Positions 1-12,126 of a stretch of 64,000 bases of DNA are shown here, piece by piece. The stretch is from Leptotrichia buccalis C-1013-b (lineage in GTDB: Bacteria > Fusobacteriota > Fusobacteriia > Fusobacteriales > Leptotrichiaceae), in assembly GCF_000023905.1 (NCBI RefSeq), contig NC_013192.1:1178001-1242000 (forward strand). The letters are read 5' to 3'. Position 1 is the stretch's first letter. Each line of letters opens with the position of its first letter. Under the pieces are notes generated by a model that saw nothing but the letters and a program-made list of their open reading frames with translations, was not told the DNA's origin and ran no database searches. Position numbers and translations under genes: made by a program.

Positions 1-430
1 TTTCTTTATATTCCAAAAATTTATTTTTAGTTTGCTCAGTGTATAATAAATATAATGTTTCTATGTTAGGAAATATTTTTAAATCTTTTTCAAATGGTAA
101 GTCTTCAAGAATAGATTTTTTTTCACCAAAGCTATGACTGAAAGCTGAAACTATCTTTGTTATTTTATCTGTATCTACTCCCTCTTCTTCTAGTAATTTT
201 TTCTCATTTAATAAATGTCTTTTAAAATCTTCTTCAAAAAGTTTTAAATCAAAATTATCTTCTTCTATTTTTATTCCTGTTTTATTATTTTTTTTATCAT
301 AATTATCAAAATAATAATCTATTAAAAAATTGTCATCTATTTTTTCATATTTCTGAATATTTCGATTATCAATCATTAATTTCCTTATTTTTTGTGCTAA
401 TTCTGTTCTTGAGATTCCAATTTTTTCCAT
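1..430 (-). CDS. Uncharacterised protein next to CRISPR ancillary genes (C-terminus outside window)
   Basis: An open frame runs from an ATG at 430 to the window edge, giving about 143 residues starting MEKIGISRTELAQKIRK. An AGAGGAA ribosome-binding site precedes the ATG. It starts 23 nt after the stop of the tandem CARF-HEPN gene on the same strand, so it is probably the next gene of that operon. The visible part is charged and helical, rich in K, E, D and N, with no catalytic motif or membrane segment I can name. I do not recognise the family. A type III accessory or Cas protein is possible from position only. Confidence 0.6.
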   Translation of the reverse strand, partial: MEKIGISRTELAQKIRKLMIDNRNIQKYEKIDDNFLIDYYFDNYDKKNNKTGIKIEEDNFDLKLFEEDFKRHLLNEKKLLEEEGVDTDKITKIVSAFSHSFGEKKSILEDLPFEKDLKIFPNIETLYLLYTEQTKNKFLEYKE

Positions 431-453: not shown

Positions 454-2586
454 TTATTTTATTTTACCGTATTTTTTTGAATATTTTTCAATGTCTTGTA
501 ACGTAAATTTATTCATAATTTCTATTACGTTATTTAATAAATTTGAGCAATATGTTGTATCATTTCTTTCTCTAGTGTTAATATGTCCTGCATCATTTCT
601 TATTTCATTCAATTTATTTATAGAATTTATTAATTCATCTATTTTATTGTCAATATTCTTAGTTTTTAGTTTTTCCACTTTTTTATAAAAATTTTCACTT
701 TTTTCTTTCGAATCGATTTTAAAAATTTTATATTTATAAATATCAATCAAAAAGAACAGTGCCAGTGCATAATTTTTAGAATCTTTTTGTTTTCTCACAA
801 ATTTTATTAATTCTTCATATGTTTCATTTTTTATTAATTTTACTTCTATAATTTCATATACTTTTTTATTTATTAAATCTAGTTCTTTATTATTTATTTT
901 TTCAAATTCTTTAGATATCTCTATAATCTTTTTATATTCATTATATGTATATGCTTCTGAAATTTTTCTCATAATTTTTGATAATTTTTCATCTATCATT
1001 TTAGTATTTTCTAAAGCATTTGTATATTTTGTATAATCTTTAAATTCTGCTATTGATTTATACAAATTAATTATTTTTAAAATAGGTATTTTATAAATAC
1101 TTCCATACTCCGAGTTTAATATTCTTTCTCCATAATAAATCGAATGAATGATAACATTATCATTTAATAATTCAAACAATCTCAACGAAGTCAATAAATT
1201 AAATGGAATATCTCTAAATGAATGGGTAATATCCATATCTATTTCTATTATTTCTCGTTTTTTTACTTCTATTTCATTTTTTATTTTTAAATATAACTCG
1301 TCTACATCTCCAAAATTATCAATTTGAACATATTTTATTTTTTCATTTGGTAACATTATACCTTTATTTTTAAAATTTTCTGTTAAAATATCCCATTTCC
1401 CTGTTTCAAGTCCAAAAATATAAATTTGATTATAATCCTCTATGTAAGGCTCAAATGTGTATTGTGTTTCTATAATTTCTTTTTTTCCTTCGTTATCTAA
1501 ATACTCATAAAATATTTTTTCATATCCTTTTCCTGATTCACCTGACCCTAAATTCCAAATCAATATTTTTCTTTTTGATGAATTTCTATATTCATCGTTA
1601 TTTTCTATATATTTCCCTGATTTATTTAAAGGATGAACAATTTTATCTCTTTTATCCTTTAAATTTTTATATTTTTTATTATCACTTTCATACTTATTCA
1701 CTATTTCTAAGCCATAATTTTTTACTTTATTATGATATTTTTCATTCTTTAGTGATTTTACTTCTTTAATTTTTTCTTTTAAAATATTTTCATATTCATT
1801 TTTTAAATTTATTTTAGTTATTTTTTTATAAATATCATCAATACCTTTTAAATTAAATTGTAATTTAATATAAAATTCATCTAGTTTATTCAATAAATCC
1901 CTATTCCCAATTTCTCTTAATTTATCAATACTTCCATATTTTGTAAAAGAACTAACAGCGTCTACAAAATCCAATTTTTCTAGCACATTTGTTATATCAA
2001 TTATTTGAAAATAATCTGTATTTATATCATTTTGGGAATACAGCACTTTTAAATTCAATTGACTATAATACATTTTTAAAATATTGATGATTGAAACTAA
2101 TGACATATACATTATTCTAAGACCACCTGTTATATCAACATAAATTTTACTTCTGCTTTGTTCATCTAATATATTTTTTATTTCTTCTATCTGAAAAATT
2201 AAATCAGAAGCAATATTCTGATTATCAAAATTATTTTTACTTTCAACAAAAAATATTTTACACTTATCTAAAAATTTCTTTTCAAATTCTTTTTTTATGT
2301 ACCCAATATCATTTTGTTTACTTTCTTCAAATATAATTTTTTTATCTTCAGAGTAAAAATATTCATTCAGCAAATTATACAAATAATTCCAACTGCTTTG
2401 TTGTGTTCCAAAAACTACTATTTTATTTGGTTTTAATTTTTCTAAATAAACCTTTGTTAAGTATTCATATTTTTCTAAATTAAATTTTTTATCTTTCCAT
2501 CTATATTCTTTCTTATTTTTCTTTGCTCTTTTTATGTTCTCTTCAAGATTATTTGATAAAGACATAATTAAAATATTACTTTCCAT
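454..2586 (-). CDS. Tandem CARF-HEPN-CARF-HEPN ribonuclease (Csx1/Csm6-like, TM1812 type)
   Basis: The 710-aa product holds two complete CARF-HEPN units in one chain. CARF 1 (about 1-205) has GTQQSS at 60 and DITGGLR at 151. HEPN 1 has an R-x4-H motif, RDKIVH, at 313-318. CARF 2 (about 338-500) has the TM1812-type DITHSFRD at 452. HEPN 2 has RNDAGH at 663-668. In this family the CARF domain binds cyclic oligoadenylate made by Cas10, and the HEPN pair forms a metal-independent RNase. The fusion supplies an intramolecular pair. I chose the ATG at 2586 because GAAGGT lies just upstream, although an ATG 11 codons earlier is in frame. It follows the csx20 gene on the same strand after about 90 nt. 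Confidence 0.85.
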   Translation of the reverse strand: MESNILIMSLSNNLEENIKRAKKNKKEYRWKDKKFNLEKYEYLTKVYLEKLKPNKIVVFGTQQSSWNYLYNLLNEYFYSEDKKIIFEESKQNDIGYIKKEFEKKFLDKCKIFFVESKNNFDNQNIASDLIFQIEEIKNILDEQSRSKIYVDITGGLRIMYMSLVSIINILKMYYSQLNLKVLYSQNDINTDYFQIIDITNVLEKLDFVDAVSSFTKYGSIDKLREIGNRDLLNKLDEFYIKLQFNLKGIDDIYKKITKINLKNEYENILKEKIKEVKSLKNEKYHNKVKNYGLEIVNKYESDNKKYKNLKDKRDKIVHPLNKSGKYIENNDEYRNSSKRKILIWNLGSGESGKGYEKIFYEYLDNEGKKEIIETQYTFEPYIEDYNQIYIFGLETGKWDILTENFKNKGIMLPNEKIKYVQIDNFGDVDELYLKIKNEIEVKKREIIEIDMDITHSFRDIPFNLLTSLRLFELLNDNVIIHSIYYGERILNSEYGSIYKIPILKIINLYKSIAEFKDYTKYTNALENTKMIDEKLSKIMRKISEAYTYNEYKKIIEISKEFEKINNKELDLINKKVYEIIEVKLIKNETYEELIKFVRKQKDSKNYALALFFLIDIYKYKIFKIDSKEKSENFYKKVEKLKTKNIDNKIDELINSINKLNEIRNDAGHINTRERNDTTYCSNLLNNVIEIMNKFTLQDIEKYSKKYGKIK

Positions 2587-2674
2587 TTTAGACCTTCTTT
2601 CTGTAAAATTAAATTTCATTCAAAGTGCATATTTTGTTGTCGTAAGCATTCATTTTTTATCAGTTAGCTTAATC

Positions 2675-3067
2675 CTATTCATATTTTACAAACTTTACAT
2701 GCTCAAAATAACTTATCTTTTTTACAATTTCACCTTCTTTTATTTCTTCAACATTTCTTTCAGTATAACTATATACAGGAATTAATTCATTTTCTATTGA
2801 CCATTTTACAAGATTATATGTATATCCCCAGTTACCTTGAATCAGAATTATATCATCTTTGTTAAAATTTTCTTTAATAAATTTTTTTATTTTTTCCAAA
2901 TTTTCTTTATAATTTTTCTTTATTGATACATTTGACCACATATTCTGTAATTCTTCAGGTAAATTTTTAATTTCTTTTACTTTGTATTCTTCAACCAATT
3001 CTTTTTTCTGATTCTCTGTTAATTGATGCGAAAATACTAATAGTACCTTTTTTTCTTTTTTTTTCAT
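2675..3067 (-). CDS. csx20: Csx20 family CRISPR-associated protein
   Basis: A 130-aa cytosolic protein with a good GAGGAG site before its ATG. The N-terminal LLVFSHQLT motif, the middle LPEELQNMWSN and the later LIQGNWGYTYNLVKW fit the Csx20 family as I know it. I recall recent reports that Csx20 degrades cyclic oligoadenylate (a ring nuclease), but that cannot be read from sequence alone. It lies directly upstream of the tandem CARF-HEPN RNase, so it would suit switching that effector off. Its C-terminal two thirds clearly align with the C-terminus of the 8175-10253 protein, for example the shared KK-I-EN, D--LI-G--G-T---V-W pattern. Confidence 0.75.
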   Translation of the reverse strand: MKKKEKKVLLVFSHQLTENQKKELVEEYKVKEIKNLPEELQNMWSNVSIKKNYKENLEKIKKFIKENFNKDDIILIQGNWGYTYNLVKWSIENELIPVYSYTERNVEEIKEGEIVKKISYFEHVKFVKYE

Positions 3068-3243: not shown

Positions 3244-3465
3244 CTACCAACTAAAACTGTCAAAAAAACTTGATACTTCATTACAAAAATCATTTACGCT
3301 GCTACCAAAATCTTCTGCCATATTTCCCATTGTTGTAAACATATCATTTGCGGTATTAACTGTTTCGTTCATCAATTTTACTGTCTGATTTATACCTTCT
3401 GCCACTGCTACCACTCCTGCTGTTACCACTACCGCTGTTCCTACTGCTTCTTCAATTCCTGTCAT
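3244..3465 (-). CDS. Small Gly/Ala/Val-rich protein, putative membrane-active peptide
   Basis: A 73-aa ORF with an ideal AAGGAGG site 9 nt before the ATG at 3465. A GTG three codons earlier overlaps that site and is less likely. Residues about 5-27 are a short Ala/Val/Gly-rich hydrophobic stretch (VGTAVVVTAGVVAVAEG). The rest is amphipathic and ends in an aromatic FFDSFSW tail. There is no Sec signal or double-glycine leader I can point to. It has its own promoter of the same layout as the neighbouring GTPase genes. It resembles the detached membrane tail of those GTPases or a bacteriocin-like peptide. Its function is unknown. Confidence 0.6.
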   Translation of the reverse strand: MTGIEEAVGTAVVVTAGVVAVAEGINQTVKLMNETVNTANDMFTTMGNMAEDFGSSVNDFCNEVSSFFDSFSW

Positions 3466-3495
3466 TTTTATCACCTCCTTTTTTATTTTAGATTC

Positions 3496-3544
3496 ATTAT
3501 ATAATAATTTGATAACTTATTTATGTAATTTTTTCACCAACTTT
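3496..3544 (-). promoter_or_regulatory. Island promoter for the 73-aa gene
   Basis: On the minus strand TAAGTT (3519-3514) is followed by 12 nt and then TATAAT (3501-3496). That is the same spacing as the other island promoters. The distal box is poor here: AAAGTT sits at 3544-3539, a 25-bp period instead of 20-21. Confidence 0.5.
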
Positions 3545-3578
3545 TTATTCCCACCCACCTAAACCCTCTATTTATCTT

Positions 3579-4581
3579 CTAAAATATTTCTACAAAAAAA
3601 TCAACAACTCCACTAATTATATTTTCTCCTACTCCAACTATTGCTCCACCTACTGTACCTATTACTCTTCCAACTGAACCTAATCCTATTAAACTTCCTA
3701 TTGCTTGACCTATTGTTCCACCTATTGCCATTCCTTTTGTTACTGATTCCACAAATTTCTCTAAAACTTCCGCTCTGTAATCTTGTAAATCATCATTATC
3801 TTTCCATATAATTTCTTCCTTATTCATATTTTGTGCATAAACTAATCTCTTTTCTTCTGGTGTACATTGTAATATGTAGTATAATAATTTTGATAAATTG
3901 TATGTTTTTGTTGTATATATCCTTCTTCTTTTTCTCCAGCACTGTAGTAAATTGGCTCTGTGTCTATTCCTGTTGCTTCTTTTATCCTTCTTTTTACTGA
4001 TATTACTTTATTTTCCAAAAATTCTTGCAATTTCTTTTCAGGTCTATTTTCTTCCGTATTCCAATATTTACCTTTCATCGCTACATCCGCCTGATTTATC
4101 GCAACCAATATCCTATTTTCCTTATTATCCCCTAAATTCGGTATTATTACATTATTTATCAATTCGTATGATGTTCCCAAATCCCTGCTACTTCCATCCA
4201 AAATTACCAAAACCAAATCAATTAACAAATTATCATTTTCATCTTTTTCATAAAGTTTGTCAATTATTCTTTTACTATGCTTGTTATATGCTTCTTTTCC
4301 ATCACCTAATCCTGGAGTATCCCATATTACTAAATTATCCAACTCATATTTATCAATTTCCGTCGTTTCTGGATCTGCACTTATTCCTACTTTGCTACTT
4401 CCTTACCAAATAACGCATTAATTGTACTGCTTTTTCCTACTCCTGTTGCACCTGTTACCATTAAATTAATTCTTTGATTTTTCATTCTCAACAAATTCCC
4501 TAACAATTTTTGTCTTGTTTTCTCATCCATATTTTCACGCATAACATTTTTTTCAATTTCCTTAAATATATTTTTCCTCAT
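3579..4581 (-). pseudogene. YfjP-like GTPase with glycine-zipper tail, copy A, two frameshifts
   Basis: Read across two frameshifts this is one protein of about 330 aa. The first part (start 4581) carries the P-loop GATGVGKSS and breaks just after FGKEVA, where one base is missing compared with copy C. The second part has DTPGLGDG (G3) and NQAD (G4), followed by YYSAG. A second shift near 3925 separates it from the tail, which reads YNLSKLLYYILQCTPEEKR and continues in frame into the 82-aa ORF at 3579-3827. That tail is a glycine zipper (IGGTIGQAIGSLIGLGS) and probably inserts in or binds a membrane. Pieces may still be translated separately, because the tail ORF has an ATG, but no good ribosome-binding site is visible there. 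Confidence 0.75.
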
Positions 4582-4618
4582 AATTTATACCTTCTTTCTC
4601 TTATTCATATTTTTTATT

Positions 4619-4663
4619 ATTATAACATTTCAAATATAATTTATTTTTCAAAAATTTAACTTA
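4619..4663 (-). promoter_or_regulatory. Island promoter for GTPase copy A
   Basis: Minus-strand boxes TAAGTT (4663-4658) and TAAATT (4643-4638) have a 20-bp period, followed by 13 nt and TATAAT (4624-4619). Confidence 0.5.
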
Positions 4664-4667
4664 TTTT

Positions 4668-4772
4668 CTATTTTTTACTTGAACACATTAATTTATTCCC
4701 TAAAATTTGTTTACTTCTTTTTATTTTTACTTCATAATATTTCATCACTTTTTCTTTAATTAATCTTTTCAT
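4668..4772 (-). CDS. Possible 34-aa basic small protein
   Basis: A short ORF (MKRLIKEKVMKYYEVKIKR at the N-terminus) has a strong GGAGGG site 7 nt before its ATG. An island-type promoter lies about 38 nt upstream. The product is highly basic, with no signal peptide. It could be a small regulator, a signalling peptide or the leader of GTPase copy A. Real translation is uncertain; the promoter and ribosome-binding site are the only support. Confidence 0.35.
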   Translation of the reverse strand: MKRLIKEKVMKYYEVKIKRSKQILGNKLMCSSKK

Positions 4773-4810
4773 ATTCCATCCCTCCAGAAATTAATTTTTT
4801 ATCATAATCT

Positions 4811-4854
4811 ATTATTACATTTTTTTATAACTTATTTTTTATTCCTACAACCTA
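4811..4854 (-). promoter_or_regulatory. Island promoter for the 34-aa ORF
   Basis: Minus-strand boxes TAGGTT (4854-4849) and TAAGTT (4834-4829) have a 20-bp period. After 12 nt comes the weaker -10 AATAAT (4816-4811). Confidence 0.45.
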
Positions 4855-4862
4855 TTTTCAAA

Positions 4863-5555
4863 TTATGCTCCTATTAACTGCCTTTTTTCCAAAATTATAT
4901 TATCTATTATAAAATCTAGTAATTTTTCTATGTTATAACCATATTCTGCTGAATAATATACTGGTTTTCTTATTGTTACTCCTGTTGCTTCTTTTACCCT
5001 ATTTTGTATAGATATCGCTTGTTTTTCTAAAAAATCTACTAACACTTGATCTGGTCTATTTGTTTCTTTATTCCAGTGTCTGCCTTTCATTGCCATATCC
5101 GCCTGATTAATTACCACTAATATCCTATCTGCCTGTATATTTGGAACTATCACTTCATTTAATAATGTATATGTACTTCCCATATCTCTATTTAATCCTT
5201 CCAGTACTACAATTGCCAAATCTACCCAGCCATAGACATTTCCATCCAATGAATAAGTTTTATATAATAAATTTACTAATTTTCTTTTATGAATTTCATC
5301 GTTCTTAACACCATCTCCCAATCCTGGAGTATCCCACAATCTAAATACATCATTTAATGAATAAAATTCCAGGCTCATTGTTTCTGGATCTACTCCGTTA
5401 CCAACTATTGCCACATTTTTTCTAAAAATTGTATTTAATGTTGTTGATTTTCCTGCTCCTGTTACTCCTGTCACCATTACATCCAAAGGCATAAATCTTG
5501 CTTTTTCTAATTTTTTTTCTATATCCATTTTTCTATAATCTCTAAAATTTGTCAT
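4863..5555 (-). CDS. YfjP-like P-loop GTPase, copy B (intact, no zipper tail)
   Basis: A 230-aa intact GTPase with P-loop GVTGAGKST at 30-38, G3 DTPG at 75-78 and the non-canonical G4 NQAD (usually NKxD) at 150-153. The family is the YfjP/YeeP type (COG3596), often found on mobile elements; its cellular role is poorly known. It aligns with copies A and C through the end of the GTPase domain (YNIEKLLDFI, EKRQLIGA) and then stops exactly where the glycine-zipper tail begins in the other two. The protein is thus a soluble, tail-less version and could pair with a separate small membrane peptide such as the 73-aa neighbour. It has its own well-matched island promoter. Confidence 0.85.
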   Translation of the reverse strand: MTNFRDYRKMDIEKKLEKARFMPLDVMVTGVTGAGKSTTLNTIFRKNVAIVGNGVDPETMSLEFYSLNDVFRLWDTPGLGDGVKNDEIHKRKLVNLLYKTYSLDGNVYGWVDLAIVVLEGLNRDMGSTYTLLNEVIVPNIQADRILVVINQADMAMKGRHWNKETNRPDQVLVDFLEKQAISIQNRVKEATGVTIRKPVYYSAEYGYNIEKLLDFIIDNIILEKRQLIGA

Positions 5556-5600
5556 AAACTATCACACTCCATTTTTATTCTCTTTCTCATTTACAAAAAT

Positions 5601-5645
5601 ATTATATCTTTTTCTTCTAACTTATTTTCTTCTACAAATAACTTA
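5601..5645 (-). promoter_or_regulatory. Island promoter for GTPase copy B
   Basis: This is one of the two clearest examples. On the minus strand TAAGTT (5645-5640) and TAAGTT (5624-5619) have an exact 21-bp period, then 12 nt, then TATAAT (5606-5601). No good -35 hexamer is visible at the usual distance. Confidence 0.6.
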
Positions 5646-5687
5646 TTTTAATACTTCATACATTATGTTTAATATACACTTGCTTCA

Positions 5688-6149
5688 CTAATTTTCATTT
5701 ACAATTTCCCCATTTTTCAATGAATAAAATTTTTGATTGCTTGATCCGAAAAATTTTCCTTGTATTCTCAATTCATGCATATATTTTCCAACTTTTAAAT
5801 ACTTTAATTTTTTCAAAATATTTCTTGAGACATCTTTAAAATCATAGGAGGTATAAAGTGCTATTTCAAAATCTTTTTCATGCATTTCATTAATAAATTC
5901 TTCCAAGGCTTCCTTTTGCATTAAAGGTTCTCCACCTGAAATAGTAATTTTTTTTACTGGCAAATTATAAGACATTATTTCATCACACAATTTTTTTACT
6001 TCATATTCCCTACCTGTTCGGATGTCTTGGATTTCACTATTATGGCAACCTTTACATTTCACATTACAGCCTTGAAAAAATACTGTTAATCTAATTCCTG
6101 GTCCATCTTCATATCTGTTTTTTTGAATTGATGCAATTTTTACTTTCAT
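5688..6149 (-). CDS. Radical SAM activating-enzyme-like protein (NrdG-type)
   Basis: A 153-aa protein with the radical-SAM [4Fe-4S] motif CNVKCKGC (CxxxCxxC) at about residues 29-36 and the SAM-binding TISGGEPL. Size and layout match the activating enzyme of anaerobic ribonucleotide reductase (NrdG), which makes a glycyl radical on NrdD. No nrdD or other glycyl-radical enzyme is in the window, and the chromosome uses NrdEF here. It may therefore activate an unlinked partner or modify a peptide from the island. I chose the ATG at 6149 because GGAGGT lies 7 nt upstream; a start 10 codons earlier overlaps that site. It has an island-type promoter. Confidence 0.75.
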   Translation of the reverse strand: MKVKIASIQKNRYEDGPGIRLTVFFQGCNVKCKGCHNSEIQDIRTGREYEVKKLCDEIMSYNLPVKKITISGGEPLMQKEALEEFINEMHEKDFEIALYTSYDFKDVSRNILKKLKYLKVGKYMHELRIQGKFFGSSNQKFYSLKNGEIVNEN

Positions 6150-6183
6150 TTTATACCTCCGATTATGTATTTTTTTCATTATT

Positions 6184-6227
6184 ATTGTAACACTTGTATC
6201 TATCTTACTTATCCAAAAAATGTCCTA
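6184..6227 (-). promoter_or_regulatory. Island promoter for the radical SAM gene
   Basis: Minus-strand boxes TAGGAC (6227-6222) and TAAGAT (6207-6202) have a 20-bp period. After 12 nt comes the -10 TACAAT (6189-6184). The boxes are degenerate but the geometry matches the others. Confidence 0.45.
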
Positions 6228-6242
6228 TTTTTTAAATTTCAA

Positions 6243-7318
6243 CTAAAACCATCCTCCAAAAAAACTTCCAATTGCATCACATACACCTTTCACTGCACCT
6301 ACAACTCCACCAACTGCTCCACCTATTACCGAACCAACTGCCGAACCTACCTCTTCTCCAATTTCTCCAAATATTCCACTAATTGTCCCACCTATATTTG
6401 CTCCTGCGTCGCTTCCTTCCATCCTTCCATCCGATATACCTTCTGTCACATTCGCTACACCTTCTGATAACACTTCAACTGCTGCTCCAAAAATAGTTTC
6501 TAAAATATCTCTTCTATAATCTTTTAAATCGTCATTATCTTTCTACATTACTTCTTCTTTGTTCAAATTTTGTGCATAAACGTACTCTTTTTTCTTCTGG
6601 TGTATATTGCAATATTATAATAATTTTGATAAGTTATATGGTTTTTGTTATAATTCTCCTTCTTCCTTGTATCCTGCACTGTAATAAATTGGTTTCACTT
6701 CTATTCCTGTTCCTTCTTTTATTCTTCTTTTTACCGATATCACCTTATTATTCAAAAATTCTTTTAAAATACTTTCAGGACGATTCTCTTGTTCATTCCA
6801 ATATTTCCCCTTCATTGCTACATCCGCCTGATTTATCGCAACTAATATTCTGTTTTTTTTATTTTTACCTAAATTGGGTATTATTATATTATTTATCAAT
6901 TCATACGATGTTCCCAAATCTCTACTTCCTCCATCCAGTATCACTAAAACCAAATCAATTAACAAATTACCATTTTCATCTTTTTCATAAAGTTTATCAA
7001 TCATTTTTTTACTATGTTTATTATCTGCTTCTTTTCCGTCACCTAATCCTCGAGTGTCCCATATTACCAAATTATCCAGTTCATATTTTTCAATTTCCAT
7101 TGTTTCTGGATCTGCACTTGTTCCTATTCTTGATACTTCCACTCCAAACAATGCGTTTATTGTGCTGCTCTTTCTACATCCTGTTGCACCTGTACCATCA
7201 AATTAATTTTTTGTTTCTTCAATTTCAATAAATTTCCCAATAATTTTTCTCTTACTTTTTTATCCATTTTTTTACTCATAATAATGTTTTCAATCTCTTT
7301 TAACAAATTTCGTTTCAT
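6243..7318 (-). pseudogene. YfjP-like GTPase with glycine-zipper tail, copy C, heavily decayed
   Basis: This is the third paralogue and is broken in several ways. A base is lost just before the P-loop, so the N-terminal frame from the ATG at 7318 ends early. The P-loop reads GATGCRKSS and G3 reads DTRGLGDG, both damaged. Stop codons and shifts follow the GTPase domain near 6660. In the tail, the Trp codon found in copy A after NKEEII is a TAG stop (NKEEVM then stop). The glycine-zipper part (IGGTISGIFGEIGEEVGSAV) remains open at 6243-6473. The largest intact GTPase piece is 6648-7151. Confidence 0.8.
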
Positions 7319-7346
7319 AATTAATTCCTTCTTTCTATTTTCCAGT

Positions 7347-7373
7347 AACCTATTTTTTCACTTCAATATCTTA
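7347..7373 (-). promoter_or_regulatory. Island direct-repeat boxes upstream of copy C (no -10)
   Basis: Minus-strand TAAGAT (7373-7368) and TAGGTT (7352-7347) keep the 21-bp period. The expected -10 position reads AAAGAA, so the promoter looks damaged, in line with the dead gene behind it. Confidence 0.4.
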
Positions 7374-7417
7374 TTTTTTAATCCTTTAAACATTCTTTAT
7401 AATTTTTAATTTTTTTA

Positions 7418-7870
7418 TTACGTTATCTTTAATGATTCTCTACAAGTAAACAGCACTTCCAATCTTTGATACAAGTCAACAATTTCACAAAAAAACTTTT
7501 CATCTATATCATCTTCAGTAATAGAAAATTCATATCCATTTTTTAAACTTTTACTTTCTTCATATTTAAAATATATTCCCTTCAAACTAAAGCAAAAAGC
7601 TATATAATTTTTATCCTTGCTATTTTTAAACTTTAATGTAAATGTCTCCTGTCTTTCCCAATATAAGTCTTTTTCTAAATAAATCTCCTCAATATCTTCT
7701 TCCAGCAAGTTTCTAACATAATTAAATATTCTGAAAAAATCTTTTTCAAAGTGCTCTTTTGTTATTTTTGCAAGATAAACTTCAGAATCTATTCTTCTAT
7801 TTTTTTTAATACTCTCAGCAATTGAATCCAAATATTCTCTTTTTTTCAAAATTAAATCTTTGCTTAACAC
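7418..7870 (-). CDS. Uncharacterised 150-aa protein of the GTPase island
   Basis: I do not recognise this protein. It is soluble, with no signal peptide or membrane segment. The N-terminal half is helical and charged; the rest looks like mixed strands and helices, ending LEVLFTCRESL. GGAG lies 9 nt before a GTG at 7870, which I prefer to an in-frame TTG nine bases earlier that almost touches the GGAG. It is the first gene of the island and carries one of the two best copies of the shared promoter, so it probably belongs functionally with the GTPases. Confidence 0.65.
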   Translation of the reverse strand: MLSKDLILKKREYLDSIAESIKKNRRIDSEVYLAKITKEHFEKDFFRIFNYVRNLLEEDIEEIYLEKDLYWERQETFTLKFKNSKDKNYIAFCFSLKGIYFKYEESKSLKNGYEFSITEDDIDEKFFCEIVDLYQRLEVLFTCRESLKIT

Positions 7871-7918
7871 GACATTCAACTCCTATAATTTAATTTTTCC
7901 CTTCTTATTTACAAAATC

Positions 7919-7963
7919 ATTATATACTTTTTCTCCAACTTACTTTTTTTCGTTATTAACCTA
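7919..7963 (-). promoter_or_regulatory. Island promoter for the 150-aa gene
   Basis: Minus-strand TAGGTT (7963-7958) and TAAGTT (7942-7937) have an exact 21-bp period, then 12 nt, then TATAAT (7924-7919). The geometry is identical to the copy B promoter. Confidence 0.6.
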
Positions 7964-7973
7964 TTTTTTTCTC

Positions 7974-8174: not shown

Positions 8175-10253
8175 CTAGTACTCTCTAAATTCTGTTTTTG
8201 TCAGAAAATTATCTTCCTCTTTTTTAAATTCATAAATTGCGATTATTCCTGTTTCTTTTGCCCAGCCTACTATATCAAAAGTTATTCCTGTTTCTCCATT
8301 TATTAAAAGAACATCGCCTGGCTCAATGTTTTCTTCTATTATTTTTTTAAATCTTTTAATATTTTTTTCTTTATTGTTATCATTTTCAAGATTTTTCCAT
8401 TCTTTTTCAGTTTCAGCAGTTAATTTTCTTATTTTCTTAATTTTAAATTTTTTTATCAATTCTGTTTTTTCATCTTCATTTATTATAGATTTAAATATCA
8501 AAATTTTCCTATCTTCTTTATTTGCGACTATGTTTACCTCTTTTTTTACTTCAGAAATTATTTTATTTGATAAAGTTTTATTTTTAAACGCTTCTATAAA
8601 GACTTTGTTCATTAATATGTTTTGTAGATGTCTTATTTTTTTTATAATCTCTATTTCCGTAATATTTATACTATTATTCTTCACTTCCAAAAAAAGTTTC
8701 ATCAACATAGATAATTGCTCTTTTTTTAATTTCTGTTCAAAATTTTCCTTCTTATTATCCAGCCAATTTTTTACAACGTTTTTATTTTCTCCTGATTTTT
8801 GTACATTAAGTTCTTTAAATAAAAAATCATATATACCATTAGATATTATTCTTCCAATTTCTATAAATTTTCCTTCTTCGGCTAGTTTTTCTAAATAAGT
8901 GTATGTTGATTGTGATTGAAGATTTTTAGATTGTAAAATCTTATTTGAATACTCCATTTTAAATATTTCTCTCAATTTTTGTATATTTTTTGAAATTTTT
9001 GAAATAATATCTTGCATTTTCGCCTTATTTTCCAATGTATGTGATATGTTATTTCTAATAATTCTAAAGTTTTCAAAAATCTTGCTCAATTCTATTCTAT
9101 TTTCTATTTCTTTCTCTGATAATTTTTTGTAATTTACTCTATTTTCTTCATTTATTCCATTTATCCATTCCCTCAATTTATCCTTACCTTTATTTATATC
9201 CTCAATTCCTAAAATTTTTCCTGCGAAAGTATAAATTGCTTCAACAATATTTACAAAACTCATTGAATATCTTTTTTGATTATAATGCCATTCTGCTAAA
9301 TTCAGTAACATTTCAAATGTATTTTGCTCTTTTCCAAAATTTTCTGCAAATCTTTCTAAAATATCTGGTAATAGCAACTTAGCAGGTCCATCCAAAGTCT
9401 TTATAATTTCTTCTATTTTATTAATTTTTTCAATATTTTCCTTTATATTCCCAATGTAATTCATATTCATAGAATTTGAAAATTCTTCCATGCTATTTTT
9501 CAGCTCTTCATTAGTAAGCATATCCAAAAATTCATAACTATTTCCATATTCCTTAAAAGCATTCGCTCCTTTAATCCATTTCATCAGGTCATAAAAAGGT
9601 TTCAAATTTATTACTGATGCTACTTTTATTAAATTTCCTTCATCATCTATATCATCATCCATTTCTTCTAACATACCATAAGTTATTGTTTTTATCTTAA
9701 TATTTTTATCAATAACATCTGTAATATAATTCATTACCAAAAACATCCACATTGCATTCGATCTAAAAGAATGTGTTATATCCAAATAAATTTCATCATT
9801 TATATTTAAAGAATTTATTATTTTCATAATTTCTGAAAAATTTTCAAAAATTTCATCTGCATCCATTCCATATTTAGTTACAATAATTTCCACATTTGAA
9901 AATTTACTGTTAAACTTATCTGCATCTATTAAATTTACTTCTGTATTTTTATTAGCTTTTTCTGTAATACTTCTTAATTCCTTTTTATATTCCTCATCTA
10001 TTGTTATTTTATTTTTTTCACAATAATGCACATACAGTTTATCCCACATAGATCCTGCTGTTCCAATATATATAGTTTTATCAATCTCATAATGTTTTTC
10101 CAAAACTGCTGTAACAAAATATTCATCTTTGTATATCTTATACGTTTTCAAATCTTCGTTTTTTATTCTATAATTCGCTTTTCTGTAATCTCTTTCATTA
10201 CTATGAATATCTATCATACCTTTTCCCAATCCCGCTATCAGTATCTTTGCCAT
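8175..10253 (-). CDS. CARF-HEPN ribonuclease fused to a Csx20-like domain
   Basis: A 692-aa protein. The N-terminal TM1812-type CARF (about 1-215) has GTAGSMWD at 64 and DITHSFRS at 158. A HEPN domain follows with RNNISH at 400-405, the catalytic R-x4-H. Residues 440-560 are a second helical region without an intact R-x4-H. Residues about 581-690 align with the free Csx20 at 2675-3067 (W at 619, LINGETGITFD, VGWAKE, IAIYE), although the HQLT motif of free Csx20 is absent. The arrangement joins a cyclic-oligoadenylate-activated RNase to a possible ligand-degrading or ligand-binding domain. AAGGAG precedes the ATG. It is the first gene downstream of the CRISPR remnant. Confidence 0.85.
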   Translation of the reverse strand: MAKILIAGLGKGMIDIHSNERDYRKANYRIKNEDLKTYKIYKDEYFVTAVLEKHYEIDKTIYIGTAGSMWDKLYVHYCEKNKITIDEEYKKELRSITEKANKNTEVNLIDADKFNSKFSNVEIIVTKYGMDADEIFENFSEIMKIINSLNINDEIYLDITHSFRSNAMWMFLVMNYITDVIDKNIKIKTITYGMLEEMDDDIDDEGNLIKVASVINLKPFYDLMKWIKGANAFKEYGNSYEFLDMLTNEELKNSMEEFSNSMNMNYIGNIKENIEKINKIEEIIKTLDGPAKLLLPDILERFAENFGKEQNTFEMLLNLAEWHYNQKRYSMSFVNIVEAIYTFAGKILGIEDINKGKDKLREWINGINEENRVNYKKLSEKEIENRIELSKIFENFRIIRNNISHTLENKAKMQDIISKISKNIQKLREIFKMEYSNKILQSKNLQSQSTYTYLEKLAEEGKFIEIGRIISNGIYDFLFKELNVQKSGENKNVVKNWLDNKKENFEQKLKKEQLSMLMKLFLEVKNNSINITEIEIIKKIRHLQNILMNKVFIEAFKNKTLSNKIISEVKKEVNIVANKEDRKILIFKSIINEDEKTELIKKFKIKKIRKLTAETEKEWKNLENDNNKEKNIKRFKKIIEENIEPGDVLLINGETGITFDIVGWAKETGIIAIYEFKKEEDNFLTKTEFREY

Positions 10254-10826: not shown

Positions 10827-12126
10827 GAGACAGAGTAAAAAATATAGGGGCAGTCATTAAATACCACAACAAACTTTTTTGACTGCTTTTTTTAAAATAT
10901 TTTACTTTGTGATATTTCTTTCAAAACTTCCCTAATCGGACATTCTCCTCCTCTCAAATATGGAATGTTTGTGCTTTTCTCTGCTTCATTAACAATTTCT
11001 GGCAAGCATTCCATCTCTATTATCTTTTCTAGTGAACTCGTTCTTTTGTCGCTAAAGTACAATTCATACGCTTTTTCCCTATTTTTTCCATAGTTTGCAA
11101 AGAAAGTGTGGTATAACGCTCTTGCCTTTATCTTTCTCAAGCCACCTGTAAAGATTTTTTGATACTTCCTTGTCCTTCTTGGAAATTTCAACTATAGCTT
11201 TTACTAGATGAAACTTGTCATAAATGTGTATTGGATTGTAAATCCTAAGCTCCCCTACAAAGCTGTCTATCCATATTCCCCCATCAGAGTTCACAATCAG
11301 CTTCTTCTTGTCCATATTGTATCTCTTTTCAAGATAGTTAAGCACATATTCCGACACTTCCTCAAGCGGTACGGATGTAGGAAACATTATTGTGTGTTTG
11401 TCAATAAGTTTGTTTCTGTCCCTGCAGATTTCCTCAATTCCACGATGTATTGAAACCAACCTCATATATGTGTTTTTACTTCTTCTGCACTTCATATGGT
11501 CTTCATCAATCTCCATATATACTGGCGAATCGTCATCCCTTTCAAATCTTTCAATATCAAGTTTCGGCATTTGAAAAGAATTGACAAGATTATACACAGT
11601 AGCCCTTGAAACACCGTAAGTTTTTGCAAGAAATGAAGCCGTGGCATATTGATACTCAAAAAGTATAGTAAAAATCAGCTCCTCAGAAAGCCTTTTGTAC
11701 CGCTTAAGCCCAATTTTTTCATCAATGTAGTAGTGAATGCCTGTTTTCTTGTCTACATATTTTCGACGTTCAAAAGTGACATGCCCGAAAGCAGTAGTAA
11801 CAGTTCTTTTAACAAATCCTTTGCTTTTAAATTTATCTTTTCTTTCATCGGAATGAAAAAAGGCACCATCAACTCTTTTGACATAAACTCTAAACAGCGT
11901 TTCAAAAGCTTTTGTGACAAACAGCTTAAACTGCTGCTCAAACGGAAGTCTGAAAGAAAAAATATTTTTAAAAAAAGTCTTTACAAGCGAGGAAAAATTT
12001 GATATTCTAATCATAGAGGAAACCATCTTTCAATAGGATTTGGCGATTATATTGTAACTGGCTTCCTCTTTTTTGTTAATTTGAAATTTAATTAAATTTA
12101 TTTGCTCCTATATTTTTTACTCTGTC
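10827..12126 (-). mobile_element. ISLre2-like insertion sequence, decayed
   Basis: Perfect 21-bp inverted repeats mark the ends: AGACAGAGTAAAAAATATAG plus G at 10828-10848, and its complement at 12107-12127. A 9-bp direct repeat TTGGATATT at 10818-10826 and 12127-12135 is the likely target duplication; it overlaps the right repeat by one base. The element carries one broken UPF0236-type transposase gene and lies between the CRISPR leader and the nrdF terminator. Confidence 0.8.
10892..12026 (-). pseudogene. ISLre2 family (UPF0236) transposase, frameshifted
   Basis: The upstream part (11079-12026) has the helix-turn-helix region FLAKTYGVSRATVYNLV and the DDE-type core MEIDEDH, VNSDGG and YDKFHLVKAI. 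The downstream part (10892-11191) is in another frame and holds the C-terminal CLPEIV, GGECPIREV. The two overlap around 11080-11190, so a one-base shift near an A-rich run joins them. Even joined (about 378 aa) it is shorter than typical members, so an internal deletion is possible. Confidence 0.75.

Follow-up and report, generated by a model that had tools for sequence, protein, structure and literature searches.

Most known outputs of type III signalling in CRISPR (clustered regularly interspaced short palindromic repeats) immunity are enzymes that attack either the invader or the cell itself. As of 2022, a transcription factor, Csa3, was the one CARF effector other than a nuclease that had been characterised experimentally (PMC9704534). 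This archaeal protein joins a CARF sensor to a putative DNA-binding C-terminal domain of the winged helix-turn-helix kind, is encoded beside cas genes, and has been proposed to make cas transcription respond to cyclic oligoadenylate (PMC8844856, PMC8699464). In the CalpL-CalpT-CalpS and Craspase systems, transcription likewise responds to the recognition of foreign RNA by CRISPR, by way of proteolysis and a sigma factor (PMC12751052, PMC10028731). With regard to promoter architecture, SARP/OmpR-type activators such as AfsR and ActII-ORF4 bind direct repeats that are separated by one or two turns of the helix; in SARP sites the near repeat lies 8 bp from the -10 element, and the activator pair contacts region 4 of the sigma factor over the -35 (PMC10936776). 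The LytTR regulators (AgrA, HdrR, BrsR) use direct repeats with a period near 21 bp, placed upstream of the -35 (PMC6193735). Here, a promoter design is described that recurs in a 64,000-nucleotide stretch of Leptotrichia buccalis C-1013-b (the window, positions 1178001-1242000 of a single chromosome of 2,465,610 bp; genome G000), within a type III CRISPR-Cas island that the first-pass annotation of this DNA had not recognised. The design is specific to such islands, is conserved from one island gene to the next as well as between species, and has no -35 element. It is probably used by one dedicated activator, a CARF protein gated by cyclic oligoadenylate, to switch on the island as a unit.

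The design comprises two direct-repeat TARGTT boxes with a period of 21 bp (20 at some sites), the near box being located 12 bp upstream of TATAAT. All the boxes named in the first-pass annotation were found where it had placed them, although they are of unequal strength, and a degenerate far box can be added to the single good one at 3519. The sites of the window are the following:

7909..7968, minus strand: promoter site, boxes TAGGTT at 7963 and TAAGTT at 7942, TATAAT at 7924; drives the 153-amino-acid (aa) open reading frame (ORF) at 7418-7879
5591..5649, minus strand: promoter site, boxes TAAGTT at 5645 and 5624, TATAAT at 5606; drives the GTPase gene at 4863-5555
4804..4858, minus strand: promoter site, boxes at 4854 and 4834 (period 20), AATAAT at 4816; drives a 34-aa micro-ORF
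4611..4667, minus strand: promoter site, boxes at 4663 and 4643, TATAAT at 4624; drives the frameshifted second GTPase gene
3487..3545, minus strand: promoter site, near box at 3519, degenerate far box at 3540, TATAAT at 3501; drives the 76-aa ORF at 3244-3474
6174..6232, minus strand: weak promoter site, boxes at 6227 and 6207, TACAAT at 6189; before a gene for an NrdG-like radical SAM protein
7335..7378, minus strand: degenerate promoter site, boxes at 7373 and 7352, -10 lost; before a decayed GTPase gene

These sites were evaluated with two sequence-only or out-of-sample models and with a flexible matrix. Model R1 was built from sequence only, with 14 training sites that include those at 7963 and 5645, and was run on 60 genomes (G000 and relatives) and then on an enlarged panel of 98 genomes of the phylum. 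Model R2 holds 11 sites, all from genomes G022 and G010 and none from G000, to avoid circularity. The flexible matrix reached a background maximum of 10.6 in 108 kb. Five genomes carry the motif: G000, G004, G006 and G010, of the same genus, and G022, of another genus of the same family.

In the window scan, the site at 7963/7942 obtained an R1 E of 6.7e-11, as a member of the training set, and it is the best match of the whole chromosome with R2 (E 2.6e-7). The site at 5645/5624, likewise used in training, gave 1.8e-10 with R1 and 6.9e-7 with R2, and has orthologous sites in G004, G006, G010 and G022. Two sites outside the R1 training set were also recovered by this model: 4854/4834 (E 1.5e-4), with orthologous sites in 4/4 of the other motif genomes, and 3519 (E 5.3e-4), which ranks fourth in the chromosome with R2 (E 0.028). 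The site at 4663 is off register (period 20, spacer 13) and obtained an E of 2.4 with the rigid model; with the flexible matrix it scored 25.8, against the background maximum given above, and it has orthologues in G004, G006, G010 and G022. The two remaining sites are not significant on their own: 6227 (R1 E 0.43) has a weak orthologous site in G022/G006 scoring 13.7, and 7373 (R1 E 0.12) precedes the broken third GTPase gene, whose orthologue in G022/G004/G006 shows an intact site scoring 31.5. With the flexible matrix, each island contains about 6-11 sites, with scores of 13-34.

Within one genome, the pairwise identity between sites is 0.81 and 0.87 for the boxes and 0.92 for the -10, compared with an expected 0.34-0.49 (z of 13-14 for the boxes and 10 for the -10). 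The inter-box spacer and the 15 nt that follow the -10 are mildly conserved, and farther flanks are at background. Promoter copying together with the flanks was for this reason rejected. The recent copying of a promoter cassette among island genes, instead of selection on each site, would account for the spacer and initiation sequence that the sites at 7963 and 5645 partly share, and for the fact that two of the served genes are GTPase paralogues. However, between sites of one genome it is the boxes that persist and not the spacers, and orthologous sites persist between species, which makes this explanation very improbable. The data thus uphold the view of the first-pass annotation that a single promoter design marks a dedicated regulon not explained by copied flanking DNA. 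Its statement that the served genes are not paralogues has to be corrected for two sites that precede paralogous, frameshifted GTPase genes.

A further possibility is that no dedicated factor exists, and that phased A-tracts in an AT-rich context produce intrinsically strong, curved promoters. A-tracts do precede each box, and the boxes are about two helical turns apart. Against this, the G of each box is invariant in the training alignment despite a genome of 28% G+C, the spacer and the flanks are far less conserved than the boxes, and elsewhere in the chromosome the design does not occur. Promoters working by curvature are a very unlikely explanation.

The specificity of the design was demonstrated by searching for the exact pattern TARGTT-N14/15-TARGTT-N10..14-TAWAAT, with the reversed pattern as control. 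It matched three times in the 2.47-Mb chromosome versus 0 for the control. Two of these matches are the window sites at 7963 and 5645; the third, at chromosome position 1154521, precedes a DUF1232 gene and lies 23 kb to the left of the window. A sequence resembling a CRISPR repeat, GTGAATCCATTAAAACAAGGATTGAAAC (L001 1405-1441), is located just upstream of the promoter of this DUF1232 gene. The first-pass annotation had proposed a genome-wide matrix scan to see whether matches gather here, and they do: the six best R2 matches of the chromosome (1185909, 1183591, 1154516, 1181487, 1174029 and 1182804) all fall within 31.5 kb, and matches outside this stretch start at E 0.36. The chance of such clustering is about 2e-9 (floating window), a figure that measures specificity and not the number of independent origins, given that orthologous promoters are not independent draws. 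When 3 mismatches were allowed, the rigid pattern fell to noise level in the chromosome (35 matches versus 48 in the control).

A similar exact pattern was positive in 5/60 genomes, with clustered matches. Within the genus, the exact pattern marks precisely those genomes with strong matches to the island GTPases (G000, G004, G006 and G010), and G022, the fifth positive, carries the same island. R1 matches with E < 1e-4 are confined to motif islands in both panels. The next one (E 2e-4) is a decayed promoter copy with no island behind it in G008 (L072 1501-1557, G008:C1:136248-136304); it adjoins fur/znu genes, which also flank the left part of the island in G000, and this position is consistent with loss of the island. 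Apart from this relic, none of the nine genus members without the island shows a site above noise. The motif was rejected as a marker of type III CRISPR in general, as G002, G003 and G005 hold RAMP genes with neither the motif nor the GTPase island. Beyond the phylum, the strict pattern has 0 matches in 84,980 species (a set from which near genomes may be left out), and a looser one has 12 scattered single matches in unrelated organisms, read as chance. Taken together, these data make it almost certain that the repeated promoter defines a real regulon.

The first-pass annotation had suggested that this regulon is controlled by a peptide or other signal through a regulator of the LytTR type. 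TAAGTTAAT fits a loose LytTR half-site, and the sites share with the LytTR regulons paired direct repeats of TAAGTT type about 21 bp apart. Nevertheless, LytTR repeats precede the -35 (PMC6193735), in contrast to the island sites, in which the -35/-10 spacer contains the near box. Moreover, the LytTR domain (PF04397) was absent in a domain search from 13/13 genus members and from G022, and thus from every motif genome, while it is present in 30/60 of the relatives. The genes under control serve CRISPR defence and not peptide signalling. The LytTR reading is therefore not borne out and is close to refuted.

The position of the near box had been regarded as unusual for an activator. It is, however, a known geometry for OmpR-type and SARP activators, in which the near repeat lies a few bp upstream of the -10 and overlaps or replaces the -35 (PMC10936776). 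The sites of the island share this layout, which answers the objection: their repeats are spaced at helical turns, the near repeat is close to the -10, and no sigma-70 -35 could be paired with the -10s at 7924, 5606 and 4624, the three best TATAAT sites. The promoter is thus very likely of the activator type. An activator would bind the two direct repeats, two helical turns apart, and the molecule at the near box would substitute for the -35 contact, as occurs with OmpR-type/SARP activators. A terminator is found at 8003-7980, just upstream of the site at 7963, and similar hairpins followed by T runs are visible before other sites.

The genes around these promoters form an island of the type III CRISPR-Cas kind, with Cas10, RAMP proteins and accessory CARF/Csx proteins all present. 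The cas1, cas2, Cas4-like, cas10 and RAMP genes are located to the left of the window, and the following genes within it belong to the CARF and Csx20 group:

1..430, minus strand: N-terminal part of a 698-aa CARF protein, the candidate regulator; the gene extends to chromosome position 1176334, outside the window
454..2619, minus strand: CARF-HEPN-CARF protein of the Csx1/Csm6 kind (PADLOC for the orthologue)
2675..3067, minus strand: Csx20 family protein (NF040559, E 3e-42)
8175..10253, minus strand: CARF-HEPN-Csx20 fusion of the Csx1 kind (TIGR02221 and Csx20; PADLOC for the orthologue)

The promoter serves GTPases, small glycine-zipper ORFs, the 34-aa micro-ORF, the protein of about 150 aa, EcsC, DUF1232 and the cas operon, as well as, weakly, NrdG. 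The cas-operon promoter is near-identical in G022 (C1:333522), G006 (C1:1411793) and G004 (C1:1327029), and the operons behind this same promoter are non-homologous, Csm-type in G022/G006 and Cmr-like in G004/G010. This suggests that the promoter stayed in place and the effector module was exchanged.

The proteins found in 5/5 motif islands are GTPase, small glycine-rich protein, micro-protein, CARF-HEPN protein, Csx20, EcsC, Cas1, Cas2, the NrdG-like protein (short in G010) and the CARF protein (640-710 aa). Among them, only the CARF protein has a large domain to which no role is assigned. It matches the PADLOC CARF profile PDLC01165 with 771 bits. With Foldseek, its structure model is Csm6-like (E 9e-7), is similar to Csa3 at E 0.03, and resembles other CARF structures too. 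The HEPN R-x-H motif is absent from this protein in the island members. No NCBIfam or PDB sequence match was obtained for it, nor any Pfam match for its N-terminal 376 aa or its C-terminal domain; for lack of a sequence relationship in these searches it is not filed as Csa3. The C-terminal region is predicted to run helix-strand-helix-helix-strand-strand, and in a compact homologue this domain is confidently predicted as bbb-a-b-a-a-b-b, with a long third helix and a pLDDT of 88.6. This order is that of OmpR-type winged helices. Two other island proteins were considered as regulators and rejected: the 153-aa protein, not found in G004 or G010, and the CARF-HEPN-CARF protein, not found in G010.

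The best lead to the CARF protein comes from a second family of the phylum (f4). Homologues of the protein occur in 16/98 genomes, and in the f4 type III loci (G046, G048, G049 and G077) the sequence AAAAA-GTAATT appears twice, with a period of 20 bp and about 9 nt before the -10. This promoter precedes the CARF gene itself in G046, G048 and G077; Csx20, cas1 and two small ORFs in G049; and a helicase gene in G048. A model of eight f4-type sites (R3), run on the 98 genomes, found untrained matches before the Csx20 genes of G057 and G063, both on the contig of the CARF homologue, and further untrained sites in G077 (on the CARF contig) and in G048, one of those in G048 being before a DUF1232 gene, the family served by the leftmost site in G000. 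Another f4-type site, L179 1501-1557 (G048:C13:35582-35638), lies before a Csx20-like gene off the contig of the main type III locus. The CARF family is present in 11/11 genomes with either motif at type III genes. Three of the six untrained genomes with an R3 E < 0.005 have the CARF protein (hypergeometric p 0.03), and in these three the matches are within about 15 kb of the CARF gene (p 4e-5). The relation is suggestive and not proof: the species tree is reflected in the box sequence as well as in the CARF protein, and it was next to the CARF gene that the first f4 sites were looked for.

The f4 variant also bears on the idea that infection itself switches on the defence, through a phage-encoded activator that would use these promoters as T4 MotA uses -30 boxes. 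A box at about -30 that replaces the -35 is the known layout of T4 middle promoters. Nonetheless, the f4 box is likewise tied to CRISPR loci, and among 2.9 million viral contigs the strict pattern has 0 matches and a loose one a single match, inside a coding ORF. A phage activator is, like a LytTR regulator, extremely improbable.

Several observations weigh against the CARF protein as the regulator. A Foldseek search with the C-terminal domain gave no significant match (best E 0.47) and no OmpR-type or SARP domain was matched by Pfam in this domain or in the N-terminal 376 aa, so that the winged-helix reading rests on predicted topology and the fold is not established. In the islands of the family of G000, no site precedes the CARF gene itself. 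Csx20, GTPase and EcsC co-occur with the motif as well as the CARF protein does, and the two-fold symmetry of CARF dimers does not match the direct-repeat arrangement of the sites. In addition, five of the 16 CARF genomes show neither motif (in G003 and G070, which have homologues, no analogous motif was found), and three of the six untrained R3 genomes mentioned above lack the protein.

Three of these points, namely the co-occurrence of other island genes, the unconfirmed C-terminal fold and the five CARF genomes without the motif, favour an alternative in which the regulon is real and the CARF protein merely senses upstream or acts as an effector. The regulator would then be a host factor, a different protein of the island, or the 34-aa micro-protein together with a partner. 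In the nine island-less genus members, however, a resident host regulator would find no targets. As for another island protein, the ORFs of the f4 loci with the analogous promoter include no evident GTPase or micro-ORF; these loci contain the CARF protein, Csx20 and cas genes, and only the first has a domain without an assigned role. This alternative is possible but rather doubtful, and the protein that binds the boxes is probably the island's CARF protein.

According to the mechanism proposed for the CARF protein, the CRISPR complex would see foreign RNA, Cas10 would make cyclic oligoadenylate, and the CARF domain would bind it; the C-terminal domain would then bind the repeats and raise transcription of the island. 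Infection would in this way produce one burst comprising cas genes, GTPases, glycine-zipper proteins, EcsC and DUF1232 proteins. Cyclic oligoadenylate is plausible as the signal, since all the Cas10 proteins checked retain the GGDD cyclase motif.

This scheme resembles that of Csa3 in the CARF domain, in its union with a putative DNA-binding C-terminal domain, and in the position of the gene beside cas genes. The candidate differs from it in being bacterial, in its size (500-710 aa with a large helical middle region, versus about 210 aa), in having no Pfam or NCBIfam match, and in a C-terminal topology predicted to be OmpR-like and not MarR-like; moreover, Csa3 is expected to bind palindromes, whereas the sites described here are direct repeats in the -35/-10 spacer. 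SARPs, on their part, regulate Streptomyces antibiotic clusters and have no CARF domain, and no sequence similarity to them was found. The Calp and Craspase systems depend on proteolysis and a sigma factor. By contrast, a housekeeping TATAAT is retained in the promoters described here, and the islands showed no protease or sigma gene of that kind.

A broader proposal has about even chances of being right: the direct-repeat box has changed between bacterial families with its geometry fixed, and this bacterial CARF family, previously uncharacterised, acts as a cyclic-oligoadenylate-gated activator of the whole type III regulon, including GTPase and glycine-zipper genes, through a housekeeping-sigma promoter. 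If so, type III immunity would have here a transcriptional amplification arm. The box is also a readable handle, as any gene that carries it becomes a candidate immune effector; it nominates the GTPases, the 34-aa micro-protein, and the EcsC and DUF1232 proteins. The altered box with the same layout in the second family lets the co-evolution of a CRISPR regulator and its sites be tested.

The remaining genes of this part of the window, most of them served by the sites listed above, are:

3244..3474, minus strand: 76-aa small protein, conserved in 5/5 motif genomes
3579..4581, minus strand: second GTPase with a glycine-zipper tail, split into three ORFs in G000; G022 and G004 have it whole (336 aa)
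4668..4772, minus strand: 34-aa micro-ORF MKRLIKEKVMKYYEVKIKRSKQILGNKLMCSSKK, with a GGAGG ribosome site; kept in 5/5 island genomes
4863..5555, minus strand: GTPase (MMR_HSR1), about 90% identity to copies in four other island genomes
5688..6179, minus strand: NrdG-like radical SAM protein (anaerobic ribonucleotide reductase activase family)
6243..7318, minus strand: third GTPase with a glycine-zipper tail, broken in G000; G022, G004 and G006 have it whole (372 aa)
7418..7879, minus strand: 153-aa protein of no family; 37% orthologue under the same promoter in G022 and G006

Two GTPase/glycine-zipper genes are thus frameshifted here and intact in relatives, which indicates that this strain is losing the effector genes of its island; the site of one of the two, the third GTPase gene, lacks its -10. 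In each of the five island genomes, the 34-aa micro-ORF has one of these promoters on either side. An anaerobic ribonucleotide reductase (NrdD, 534 aa, G000:C1:1174084-1175688) and an NrdG-like activase (1175859-1176143) are embedded in the CRISPR island. Finally, two transposase-like ORFs, related to each other as judged by eye, flank the accessory block, one in the window (11079-12026, minus strand) and the other at G000:C1:1169788-1171083.

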